Below are positions 16,569-55,059 of a DNA stretch of 64,000 nt, piece by piece. Each line of letters opens with the position of its first letter. Within the stretch, counting starts at the first letter, position 1. The translations under genes and the position numbers were made by a program. This DNA is from Actinomycetospora lemnae (lineage in GTDB: Bacteria; Actinomycetota; Actinomycetes; Mycobacteriales; Pseudonocardiaceae). Location: positions 1-64,000 of the forward strand of contig NZ_JAQZAO010000003.1 of the NCBI RefSeq assembly GCF_028737315.1, written 5' to 3'. Below the pieces are notes generated by a model. That model was not told where the DNA came from. It searched no databases and was given only the letters and a program-made list of their open reading frames with translations.

Positions 16569-16697
16569 GACCGAAGGGCACCTCCGCTCGATCTACCGGT
16601 CGAGAGGCGCCCTTCGCCGGAACGGTGCGAGTCGCGCCCCCTATTGACCGAAGGGCACCCTCGCTCGATCTACGCGAGCGGAGGTGCCCTTCGGTCA
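16569..16697. terminator. Tandem repeated hairpins between convergent dapE and wrbA
   Basis: Two hairpins built on the same 28-nt sequence (16569-16596 and 16646-16673, 26 of 28 identical). In the first, CGAAGGGC (16572-16579) pairs with GCCCTTCG (16609-16616). In the second, TGACCGAAGGGCACC (16645-16659) pairs perfectly with 16683-16697, with an inner CGCTCG/CGAGCG stem and a 7-nt loop. They lie between two converging genes and should terminate in both directions. Confidence 0.8.
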
Positions 16698-32787: not shown

Positions 32788-32793
32788 GCGGGT

Positions 32794-32926
32794 GTTGCAG
32801 CGAACGCGCTGTTCGTACGCGTAGAAGCAGCGAACAGCGCGTTCGCACACCGGAGGCGAACGCGACCCCGCGAGCGAACGCGGACTTCGTACGCCTAGAA
32901 GCAGCGAACAGCGCGTTCGCTGCAAC
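32794..32926. repeat. Inverted-repeat structure with 49-bp dispersed repeat, copy 2
   Basis: A perfect 22-bp inverted repeat encloses the region: 32794-32815 pairs with 32905-32926. Inside, a 35-bp direct repeat occurs at 32812-32846 and 32886-32920 (34 of 35 identical). The right end, 32875-32923, is the partner of the inverted copy at 31357-31405. Located between convergent rsgA and mrp, it can also act as a bidirectional terminator. Confidence 0.85.
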
Positions 32927-32956
32927 CCCGGACCGCGCCGCCGCCGGCGAGGTGAC

Positions 32957-39284: not shown

Positions 39285-40394
39285 TCAGAGCCAGCGGTTC
39301 TTCCGGAACGTCCGCCAGAGGACGCCGCAGATGAGCAGGATCGCGAGGATCACCGCCGGGTAGCCGAACTCCCAGTGCAGCTCGGGCATGTAGTCGAAGT
39401 TCATGCCGTAGATGCCGGCGAGCATCGTCGGCACGGCGAGCAGGGCCGCGTAGGCGGTGATCTTGCGCATGTCGTTGTTCTGGCGCAGCGTGATCTTCGC
39501 GAGCACCGCGTCGACCAGCGTCGTGAGCAGCTCGTCGAACGACGCGACGCGCTCGGCCACGGTGGCGAGGTGGTCCTCGACGTCGCGGAAGTAGCTGCGC
39601 ACCTCCGACGGCACGAGCGGCGAGTAGCCCTCGGTCAGCCGCCGCATGGGCGTGACCAGCGGCGTCACGGCCCGGCGCAGCTCGAGCACCTCGCGCTTCA
39701 TCATGTAGATCTGCTCGGCGCCGACCTCGGTGTACGGCGCGAACACCTCGGTCTCCATGACGTCGATGTCGTTCTCCACGCCGGCGGCGACGTCGAGGTA
39801 GGAGTCGACGATGTGGTCGGCGACGGCGTGGAGCACGACCGCCGGTCCCTGGGCGAGGTGCTCGGGGTCGGCCTCGAGGTTGTGGCGCACCCGGCGCAGC
39901 CCGGAGTGCTGGCCGTGGCGCACGGTGACGACGAAGTCGCGGCCCAGGAACACCATGAGCTCGCCGGACTCGACGATCTCGTTGGCGGTGGTCGGGGACG
40001 CGTGCGCCACGTAGCGCATGGTCTTGAACACCGAGAACAGCATGTCGTCGCCGCCGCCCGCGGCCCCGGTGTACCGCTCGATCTTCGGGCGCTGGTGGGC
40101 GTGCACGGCGTCCTCGACGGCCAGCGGGTGCAGGCCGAACACCTCGGCGATGTCGTGGATCTGCTCGGCGTCGGGCTCGTGCAGGCCGATCCACACGAAG
40201 CCCTCGCCGCGCCGGCGGACCTCGCCGATCGCGTCACGGTGGTTCCAGTGCCCGTCGAGCCGCCTGCCGTCGACGTAGACCGCGCAGTCGACGACGAAGG
40301 CGGCCAGCGGCACGTGGGGGACCCGCGGGTCCTTTGCGCGACCCGGGCGGATCACGCGGGCTCCGGCGTTGCGCAGGGTGGGCAGGGCAGGCAT
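39285..40394 (-). CDS. corA: CorA magnesium/cobalt transporter
   Basis: This pentameric Mg2+ channel (369 residues) has a large N-terminal cytoplasmic funnel (WIGLHEPDAEQIHDIAEVFG and VEDAVHAHQRPKIERY are CorA hallmarks), a long stalk helix and two C-terminal membrane helices with the selectivity motif YGMNFDYMPEL between them. The KNRW basic end is typical. ATG 40394 has GGAGG 5 nt upstream. Its roughly 200-nt 5' leader carries a 26-codon ORF and a large hairpin, so expression is probably controlled after initiation of transcription. Confidence 0.95.
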   Translation of the reverse strand: MPALPTLRNAGARVIRPGRAKDPRVPHVPLAAFVVDCAVYVDGRRLDGHWNHRDAIGEVRRRGEGFVWIGLHEPDAEQIHDIAEVFGLHPLAVEDAVHAHQRPKIERYTGAAGGGDDMLFSVFKTMRYVAHASPTTANEIVESGELMVFLGRDFVVTVRHGQHSGLRRVRHNLEADPEHLAQGPAVVLHAVADHIVDSYLDVAAGVENDIDVMETEVFAPYTEVGAEQIYMMKREVLELRRAVTPLVTPMRRLTEGYSPLVPSEVRSYFRDVEDHLATVAERVASFDELLTTLVDAVLAKITLRQNNDMRKITAYAALLAVPTMLAGIYGMNFDYMPELHWEFGYPAVILAILLICGVLWRTFRKNRWL

Positions 40395-40442
40395 GACGAC
40401 CTCCGGGGACCGGACGGGGTGCGGACTTCGGACATCCAGCCA

Positions 40443-40507
40443 CCGCGTCCCTCCCGGACCACCCGCGGACGCGTCAGCGCCGGGTGGTCCCACGGGAGGG
40501 GACGCGG
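40443..40507 (-). promoter_or_regulatory. Large hairpin in the corA leader (candidate attenuator)
   Basis: The plus-strand arms 40443-40464 and 40482-40507 pair over 22 positions with a 1-nt and a 3-nt bulge, around a 17-nt loop. In the corA transcript the 5' arm is the second half of the leader ORF and the 3' arm follows its stop codon. A ribosome on the leader ORF would prevent pairing. What the hairpin controls (termination or access to the corA start) is not evident. Confidence 0.6.
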
Positions 40508-40554
40508 CCCGTACTCGGGGGCAGGGCAGCCGGCCTGCAATAGGAGTCGTCCAC
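40474..40554 (-). CDS. 26-residue leader peptide ORF upstream of corA
   Basis: GTG 40554 is preceded at 6 nt by GGAGGTGA (40558-40565 complement), a full match to the 16S anti-Shine-Dalgarno. The 26-residue product begins MDDSYCRPAALPPS and ends in two arginines; it has two adjacent Asp, a Pro pair and a rare AGG Arg codon early. The TGA at 40474-40476 falls in the hairpin loop. Leader peptides with acidic or Pro residues control Mg2+ transporter genes in enterobacteria; this one is not recognised from any known family. Confidence 0.6.
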   Translation of the reverse strand: MDDSYCRPAALPPSTGRVPSRGTTRR

Positions 40555-40600
40555 GTCTCACCTCCCTCGCCTCGCGCGACACGAACTCGGTCGGTCCGTC

Positions 40601-40606
40601 ATCCTA
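40601..40606 (-). promoter_or_regulatory. -10 element of the corA transcript
   Basis: TAGGAT on the minus strand places the start near 40594, giving a leader of about 200 nt before the corA ATG and about 40 nt before the leader ORF. The -35 region is weak. Confidence 0.45.
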
Positions 40607-40693
40607 GCGACCTTCGTCGGCGCCGTCGGACCGAGGAGTCACAGGTCTCGGACGCGGCGCCTTCTCGACCAGAGACGTTCAGGAGGCGGATCC

Positions 40694-41209
40694 GTGCAGT
40701 TCGGTCGGTACTTCGAGGAGTTCGAGGTCGGCGCCACGTACAAGCACTGGCCGGGCAAGACGGTCACCGAGTACGACGACCACCTCTTCTGCCTCATCAC
40801 GATGAACCACCACCCGCTGCACCTCGACTCCCACTACGCCGAGGGCACCCAGCAGGGGCGCAACGTCGTCGTCGGCAACTACGTCTACTCGCTGCTGCTC
40901 GGGATGTCGGTGGCCGACGTGTCGGGCAAGGCCATCGCGAACCTCGAGGTCGAGTCGCTGCGCCACGTCAAGCCGGTGTTCCACGGCGACACGATCTACG
41001 GCGAGTCGACGGTGCTCGACAAGAAGGAGTCGTCGTCGAAGAACGACCGCGGCGTCGTCCAGGTCGAGACGATCGGCTACAACCAGGACGGCGTCGTGGT
41101 GTGCATCTACCGCCGCAAGGTGATGGTGCCCAAGCGCCCGGCGTCCGAGGGCACCGACGAGGCCGTGGAGGCGGAGCAGCCCCGCCGCCCGGTCCCGCAG
41201 CGCGACTAG
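40694..41209 (+). CDS. MaoC-like hot-dog dehydratase/hydratase
   Basis: This is a single hot-dog domain protein of the MaoC group (171 residues). [20 protein letters not shown] and [17 protein letters not shown] contain the hydratase 2 region with the catalytic Asp and His; [16 protein letters not shown] follows. It resembles the MaoC protein encoded with CitE and FadE19 in mycobacterial leucine/C5 acyl-CoA clusters. GTG 40694 has AGGAGG at 7 nt. It is separated from the CoA lyase and acyl-CoA dehydrogenase by two unrelated genes and ends in a CTAG overlap with the convergent Nudix gene. Confidence 0.87.
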
Positions 41210-55012: not shown

Positions 55013-55059
55013 ACGAACGCGCCGTTCGCTGCTTCCAGCGCAGCGAACGGCGCGTTCGT
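55013..55059. terminator. Hairpin of the dispersed GCAGCGAAC family after moeZ
   Basis: ACGAACGCGCCGTTCGCTGC (55013-55032) pairs perfectly with 55040-55059 around a 7-nt loop, between convergent moeZ and the symporter. Its arm sequence GCAGCGAACGGCGCGTTCG is a variant of the repeats flanking rsgA. Confidence 0.8.

Follow-up and report, generated by a model that had tools for sequence, protein, structure and literature searches.

In Pseudonocardiaceae, corA is preceded by a short, conserved open reading frame (ORF) which, judged by comparison of related genomes, is coding. An earlier note on this DNA had proposed, from a single sequence, a leader peptide that controls corA. The association of the peptide with the gene is strongly supported by the alignments: frame, ribosome site and position ahead of corA are conserved, and the pairing of a hairpin overlapping the ORF recurs in two families, the Pseudonocardiaceae and a Streptomyces-type family. 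Loss of frame and pairing in related genomes, which according to the note would have refuted the proposal, is thus not what was observed. We propose, with a probability of about 0.45, that the ORF encodes a leader peptide for a Mg2+ transporter gene similar to mgtL, mgtQ and corL, in which translation and hairpin formation would exclude each other, with ribosome drop-off as the trigger and Rho as the actor. The features of the locus, with positions in the window (the whole 64-kb stretch of DNA analysed), are as follows.

39285..40394, minus strand: corA, encoding a CorA-like Mg2+ transporter (Pfam PF01544, E = 2.7e-53), start codon ATG at 40394; the presumed controlled gene
40399..40404, minus strand: GGAGGT, ribosome-binding site of corA
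40443..40470, minus strand: 3' arm of the hairpin, beyond the stop codon of the leader ORF; core GACGCGG at 40449-40443
40474..40554, minus strand: leader ORF of 26 codons, GTG at 40554-40552, TGA at 40476-40474, peptide VDDSYCRPAALPPSTGRVPSRGTTRR
40479..40507, minus strand: 5' arm of the hairpin, within the leader ORF (codons 16-25); core CCGCGTC at 40507-40501
40513..40515, minus strand: AGT serine codon (codon 14), conserved and rare, directly ahead of the hairpin base
40558..40565, minus strand: GGAGGTGA, ribosome-binding site of the leader ORF (full Shine-Dalgarno)
40601..40606, minus strand: TAGGAT, -10-like element of the presumed corA promoter
from 40694, plus strand: gene for a MaoC-like hydratase (Pfam search), divergent from corA

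The ORF and its Shine-Dalgarno sequence lie where the earlier note had placed them, now with the minus strand made explicit, and, as had been described, the second half of the ORF doubles as one arm (5') of a hairpin, the other arm (3') lying past the stop codon. The entire hairpin spans 40507-40443 (minus strand), with the stop codon close to the loop. A leader of about 200 nt, as assumed before, fits, since the -10-like TAGGAT at 40606-40601 is kept in all 17 leaders of the genus; placed from this element, transcription of corA would start near 40594. A scan with the sigma-70 consensus gave no promoter match at the corA leader (40350-40750). The window belongs to an Actinomycetospora, and its CorA protein is 81-97% identical to that of named relatives.

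At this locus the hairpin opens with 27 pairs (-51.7 kcal/mol, row L031). The predicted fold of the 200-nt leader on the minus strand has a z-score of -2.24, with 4 of 200 shuffles equally good, and the plus strand of the same stretch folds with a z-score of -2.23 and 0 of 200. Inverted-repeat pairs of at least 20 nt and at most 150 nt apart number 56 in the window, and the corA leader hairpin is absent from the 25 of them that were listed. Since long GC-rich hairpins are thus common in the window, the weight of the argument rests on comparison and not on one sequence. Two other groups of repeats were seen. At 32791-32929 and 55013-55059, two inverted repeats with a common CGAACGCGC.GTTCG resemble a repeated palindromic element, and at 16569-16697 a near-identical inverted-repeat pair with one common arm (GACCGAAGGGCACC...) forms a small palindrome cluster.

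A search for CorA in 18 Actinomycetospora genomes yielded a close ortholog in 17, the 18th being a 59% complete assembly. Ribosome site, start, core and both hairpin arms recur in all 17. Common to every one of these leaders are TAGGATG, GGAGGTG and GACGTGG, as well as AGTA(C/T)(C/G)(G/T)GCCGCGTC followed downstream by a G(A/G)CGCGG arm, while the remaining leader sequence has largely diverged. Insertions and deletions between start codon and core occur in multiples of three. For 14 of the 17 leaders the folding energy lies between -39.7 and -51.7 kcal/mol; for the other three, where a shorter match was scored, it lies between -16.8 and -20.3 kcal/mol. The 22-bp extent claimed before is not general, the genus-wide pairing being CCGCGTC with G[AG]CGCGG (17/17). 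The same applies to details of the peptide to which attention had been drawn. Asp-Asp at positions 2-3, an AGG as codon 7 and Pro-Pro all occur here, but were kept in 10, 8 and 7 of 17 leaders of the genus and in 0, 2 and 12 of 76 rows outside it, respectively. The second corA copies of the genus carried no leader ORF in any of 12 loci (L048 left out).

The comparison was extended to 97 Pseudonocardiaceae leaders, comprising the 17 of the genus, 56 from named species and 24 others, with some species represented twice. A short ORF behind [AG]GAGGTG was found in 93 of them; the exceptions were L115 (masked), L121 (coding-like upstream, start uncertain), L150 and L163. The ORFs are 18-39 codons long and end 59-190 nt ahead of corA. 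Together the 97 leaders contain 83 distinct ORFs and 74 distinct peptides, for example MDPAPGSSTERVPAAPVVG in Pseudonocardia, MSKDPHPASTKRVLTEVAF in Lentzea, MSSGDSPLPSSPSVPTTSAGLPGF in Amycolatopsis, VGSSADSALPCSTNRVPAGKAIH in Saccharopolyspora and VPDAAGGSSSADSALPCSIGRIPAERFG... in Actinopolyspora, and beyond the core their sequence is very variable. The core tetramer AGTA was in frame with the start codon in 92 of 92 rows at 11 different spacings; one row lacked AGTA. Because the ORF picker favours serine motifs where several ORFs are available, the frame test was repeated on the 83 leaders with candidates in a single frame, and gave 108 in-frame against 2 out-of-frame AGTA. Stop codons interrupt the alternative frames in 50 (+1) and 48 (+2) of the 83 distinct ORFs, the ORFs themselves being open by selection. 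Thus, the alignment of corA upstream regions that the earlier note had called for found both the ORF frame and the Shine-Dalgarno sequence conserved in related genomes. Translation of the ORF in the cell is what these data would lead one to expect. A divergent maoC-like gene lies within 1.5 kb of corA in 45 of the 56 loci from named species. Of the 11 loci without this neighbour, 9 retain the leader ORF, indicating that the ORF travels with corA and not with the neighbouring gene. In L071, L083 and L105 (Lentzea, Kutzneria and Kibdelosporangium), a common hairpin-like stretch, GGTGTGTGAG....TCCACC, was observed upstream of the leader ORF near the presumed transcription start.

A feature that the earlier note did not mention is the conserved serine codon, for which 78 of the 83 distinct ORFs use AGT and the other 5 AGC. 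Serine is encoded by AGT in 188 of 401 cases in these ORFs versus 15 of 745 in the corA coding sequences of the named loci; retention of a rare codon against GC pressure suggests selection at the codon or the RNA level. In an unbiased 45-nt scan from the AGY codon, the best stem began 6-11 nt past this codon in 56 of 82 cases, while the distance from start codon to AGY varied between 12 and 51 nt. Given the near-fixed spacing on one side and the variable distance on the other, the AGU codon and the hairpin appear to form a single unit. The early residues are biased as well, as the earlier note had partly recognised. Aspartate makes up 11.8% of residues 2-12 and 0.6% of later ones. Of the 74 distinct peptides, 70 combine an Asp or Glu at positions 2-8 with a Pro at positions 2-12, against 28.9 on average and at most 39 in shuffles; of 29 hand-picked representatives, no more than three from any genus, 25 do so, against an average of 9.9 and a maximum of 18. 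The pair was missing from four of these 29; among 14 peptides from other orders, 10 carried it and 4 did not. Many leader peptides have a single acidic residue. As a statistical property, then, the early acidic and proline residues and the AGU near the hairpin base are established.

Pairing of the hairpin was assessed in the same leaders. Among 89 distinct leaders, the core codons (x-R/S-V-P) formed a stem with the region past the stop codon that reached p ≤ 0.05 in 46, with a mean z-score of 2.2 relative to shuffles; individually, 43 of the 89 missed this threshold. A comparison of arm classes is the more powerful test; for it, 87 of 93 rows were assigned to seven classes and six rows were left out. 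Downstream regions of the own lineage scored best for five of the seven (GCGTCTC, GCGTCCT, GCGTTTC, GCATCCC and GCCTCCC), with the largest gaps for GCATCCC (18.5 versus at most 11.7 elsewhere) and GCCTCCC (19.2 versus at most 17.0); for GCGTCCC and GCGTTCC the own lineage was not top-scoring. The exact complement was found in 6 of 16 own regions and none elsewhere for GCGTCCT, in 4 of 5 and one elsewhere for GCATCCC, and in 3 of 4 and none elsewhere for GCCTCCC, while that of GCGTCCC, present in 12 of its 27 own regions, occurred in other classes too. In all these comparisons the rows are related and hence non-independent. An automatic alignment of 31 rows, in which some 3' arms are misplaced, had 79% of its cells paired, compared with 39-58% in slid versions. 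Shuffles reached the observed value in 7 of 500 cases for the covariation score, 15 for cells with double changes, 51 for pairs with double changes, 80 for cells paired and 120 for further pair types. The co-variation of the arms that the earlier note had asked for is therefore supported by five of the seven arm classes, and the alignment surpasses shuffles on part of the measures. No conserved competing partner of the 3' arm was found down to the corA start (mean z -0.12). Pairing of the 5' arm with the part of the leader that precedes the ORF was weakly favoured (mean z 0.67; z above 2 in 11 of 83) and would be an alternative structure.

Under the mechanism that we favour, the corA leader would carry a translated sensor peptide whose acidic and proline early codons, along with the rare AGU, would make elongation fragile. 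When translation is completed, the ribosome would pass over the 5' arm, the hairpin would be blocked and the leader left open, most likely accessible to Rho, so that corA would be turned down. At low Mg2+ the ribosome would be lost or stalled in the early codons, short of covering the 5' arm; the uncovered arm would let the hairpin close and corA be read through. With usual ribosome footprints, a ribosome positioned at AGU would touch the hairpin base, and the 5' arm would stay free if the ribosome were lost in codons 2-8. What we infer in this proposal is that the signal is Mg2+, that the ribosome drops off, in which direction the switch works and that Rho carries it out. A terminator scan of 40350-40750 found no site resembling an intrinsic terminator. 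With ribosomes on the whole ORF rather than held early, the predicted exposure of the corA start site rose by more than 0.1 in 12 of 90 leaders and fell by as much in 10 (mean -0.009). We therefore regard a Rho-linked step as more likely than a switch with a classical terminator. The same inconsistent exposure, together with the partnerless 3' arm, points away from translation control, and with no terminator, no start-site effect and no competing partner the leader probably acts on transcription. Per 78 nt, the excess of C over G had a median of 13 in leaders and of 9 in coding pieces, a small difference that is no proof of a Rho site.

Several other explanations have to be weighed. With the opposite sign, the hairpin itself, though lacking a U run, would halt or pause RNA polymerase or invite cleavage, and leader translation, by keeping the hairpin open, would turn corA on. 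The high stability of the hairpin in 14 of the 17 genus leaders (-39.7 to -51.7 kcal/mol) would suit such a role, and several leader peptides of Streptomyces lividans lack a typical U-run terminator, as far as passages of PMC8079986 go; the scan found no terminator-like site, however, and if translation failed at low Mg2+, corA would presumably fall, the wrong direction for homeostasis, which makes this version unlikely. Alternatively, the ribosome could wait at AGU by the hairpin base and sense the charging of tRNA-Ser or the speed of elongation rather than Mg2+ through drop-off. The enrichment of AGT in the ORFs relative to corA, its predominance at the conserved serine and its near-fixed spacing to the hairpin are all in line with a codon sensor, but the early acidic and proline residues would then be left unexplained, and the constraint on AGT could equally act on the RNA. 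Moreover, we know of no reason linking corA to serine, and we consider such a sensor somewhat less probable again.

Translation of the leader might also refold the RNA to hide or expose the corA ribosome site, as in Salmonella mgtQ-mgtB, where, in excerpts of PMC8092293, the stem likewise overlaps the ORF. Such control is rendered quite improbable by the inconsistent change in start-site exposure (12 up, 10 down) and by the lack of a conserved partner for the 3' arm anywhere up to the start of corA. The conservation of a coding frame in several families would be expected also of a functional small protein that acts on CorA or elsewhere; yet within the Pseudonocardiaceae the length varies from 18 to 39 codons, the sequence outside the core is very variable and the peptide gene is found in cis to corA, leaving this a slim chance. 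Slimmer still is the chance that the ORF is incidental and the palindrome serves as a DNA operator, placed between the promoters of corA and the divergent maoC-like gene. The frequent divergent maoC-like neighbour fits an operator, whereas the persistence of the ORF in loci without that neighbour, the co-variation of the arms as the sequence changes, and the location of the palindrome downstream of the conserved -10 element and its tie to an in-frame codon do not. Two known types of control were considered as well. For an amino-acid attenuator, neither an intrinsic terminator in 40350-40750 nor a conserved competing partner of the 3' arm was found; the strong enrichment of AGT serine codons could be taken for its run of codons for one amino acid, but no link of corA to serine is known. 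An M-box riboswitch had no covariance-model match in the window and the loci scanned.

Premature drop-off at low Mg2+ and dependence on L31 are traits of MgtL-type sensors. Like MgtL, the actinobacterial leader peptides are acidic and contain proline near their beginning, and in both drop-off would free the mRNA for structure; excerpts of PMC11282234 tie the early EPDP residues of MgtL to fragile translation and drop-off at low Mg2+, with Rho. In contrast to CorA, the importer controlled in mgtL-mgtA is ATP-dependent, the peptides are alike in acid and proline character only, and the near-fixed AGU directly ahead of the hairpin base belongs to the actinobacterial leader. With corL-corA of E. 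coli and Salmonella it shares a short ORF in the corA 5' leader and an overlapping RNA structure; where corL-type leaders have a translated short ORF, the comparison indicates a conserved coding one. Translation of corL is inversely related to corA and Rho is involved, according to passages of PMC11552253, a relation which is proposed here. Those passages also describe a three-way junction and a UUG start, whereas the actinobacterial leader has one hairpin over the second half of the ORF. In permissive Rfam scans of the window and four loci the matches were unrelated families at chance level. No relation to the gamma-proteobacterial leader was detected, and in excerpts of PMC6429828 the published corA motif is confined to gamma-proteobacteria and metagenomes. 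Salmonella mgtQ resembles the present ORF in its stem overlap and in its early acidic residues (Asp2, Glu5), which are tied to poor translation (passages of PMC8092293), but it has 8 codons, lies within an operon and targets the mgtB ribosome site, an effect not predicted for actinobacterial corA. An actinobacterial Mg2+ leader with upstream ORFs and Rho is the M-box leader of Mycobacterium tuberculosis pe20 (excerpts of PMC12810186); it belongs to another gene and contains a riboswitch, while no M-box match occurred in the corA leaders scanned. The corA leader thus appears to be a new form of leader-peptide control of Mg2+ transporters and not a member of the corL or mgtL type.

The Rfam search proposed in the earlier note, M-box included, was run and returned no relevant family: in the window stretch at E up to 5 there were five chance-level matches, in 17 loci at the gathering score one tRNA, and for four loci a limit of E = 0.5 let through a single microRNA model. 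Of six peptides compared with NCBIfam, one gave a match, far below its cut-off. Within the main-text passages of the S. lividans reannotation, which lists leader peptides and Rfam elements, "corA" does not appear (PMC8079986). In open-licence PubMed Central text, covering titles, abstracts and passages, we found neither a description of this leader nor an account of how actinomycetes control this Mg2+ channel gene.

Outside the Pseudonocardiaceae, the leader ORF was found before one corA copy in all 20 genomes listed for family f33, which from its named relatives would be the Streptomyces type. Most of these ORFs read MDRSRPCSTTRSS..., with AGTA at offset 21. An arm of the GCTCTTCC/GGAAGAGC type lies 14-91 nt past the stop codon in 19 of 20; the stem reached p ≤ 0.05 in 13 of 20 leaders and fell short in 7, and the same pairing was predicted from an alignment of 17 f33 leaders. 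Where further corA copies of the f33 genomes were inspected (e.g. L177, L233), the leader ORF was absent. In f31, with a CorA match in 15 genomes, the ORF was present in all nine leaders examined (six lay outside the sample), with peptides such as MSSGDPSST... and MNSGDPVST..., but a downstream stem was supported in none of the nine (p 0.135-0.685). The single f22 leader examined likewise had the ORF, with the stem unsupported (p 0.85). Hence, a hairpin of this type is not universal. In L212-L215 (f31), a local palindrome inside the leader ORF (approximately GTGCTCGCGCACGTACGTCGTGCGCAC in L214) was noted in place of the long-range stem. A Streptosporangiales metagenome-assembled genome encodes the leader peptide MSPDDPSGSSS.... 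In a sample, not a census, of the class, 16 of 69 loci were positive with second corA copies counted, and in a similar sample of the phylum 0 of 18 loci had the leader ORF. A pattern search for the element in five genomes gave 17 matches, 3 of which are corA leaders; against a reversed-pattern control the counts per genome were 1/1, 3/3, 3/4, 5/3 and 5/0, one genome being counted above control. Since neither the copy in the window nor that of the Amycolatopsis type is matched by the pattern, this is a weak test.

It is conceivable, with slightly less confidence than we place in the mechanism, that this is an independently evolved actinomycete leader peptide, with no recognisable kinship to corL or mgtL, in which Mg2+ is sensed through ribosome fragility and the near-fixed AGU parks the ribosome at the base of a hairpin that decides on the transcription of corA. 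Such a leader would be ancient and shared by the Pseudonocardiaceae, the Streptomyces type and at least one further family in which the hairpin has been recast. A leader peptide spread over several families offers a direct test of whether Mg2+ sensing by ribosome fragility evolved more than once; the rule of an AGU codon followed by a hairpin can be searched for elsewhere, and its occurrence in Streptomyces-type genomes makes it immediately testable in laboratory strains.

Two further elements were observed in Streptomyces-type loci (L185, L192, L180 and others). Between the leader hairpin and corA lies a second, highly conserved structured block, CCCGCTTTG.GGACGTG ... ACGTCC.CATTCCGGG, with a predicted stem and a conserved internal loop. 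It had no Rfam match in L185 and L192 and could be another regulatory RNA of corA. Directly upstream of the ribosome site of the leader ORF, these leaders carry a conserved small hairpin, TCCC..ACG.GGGA.
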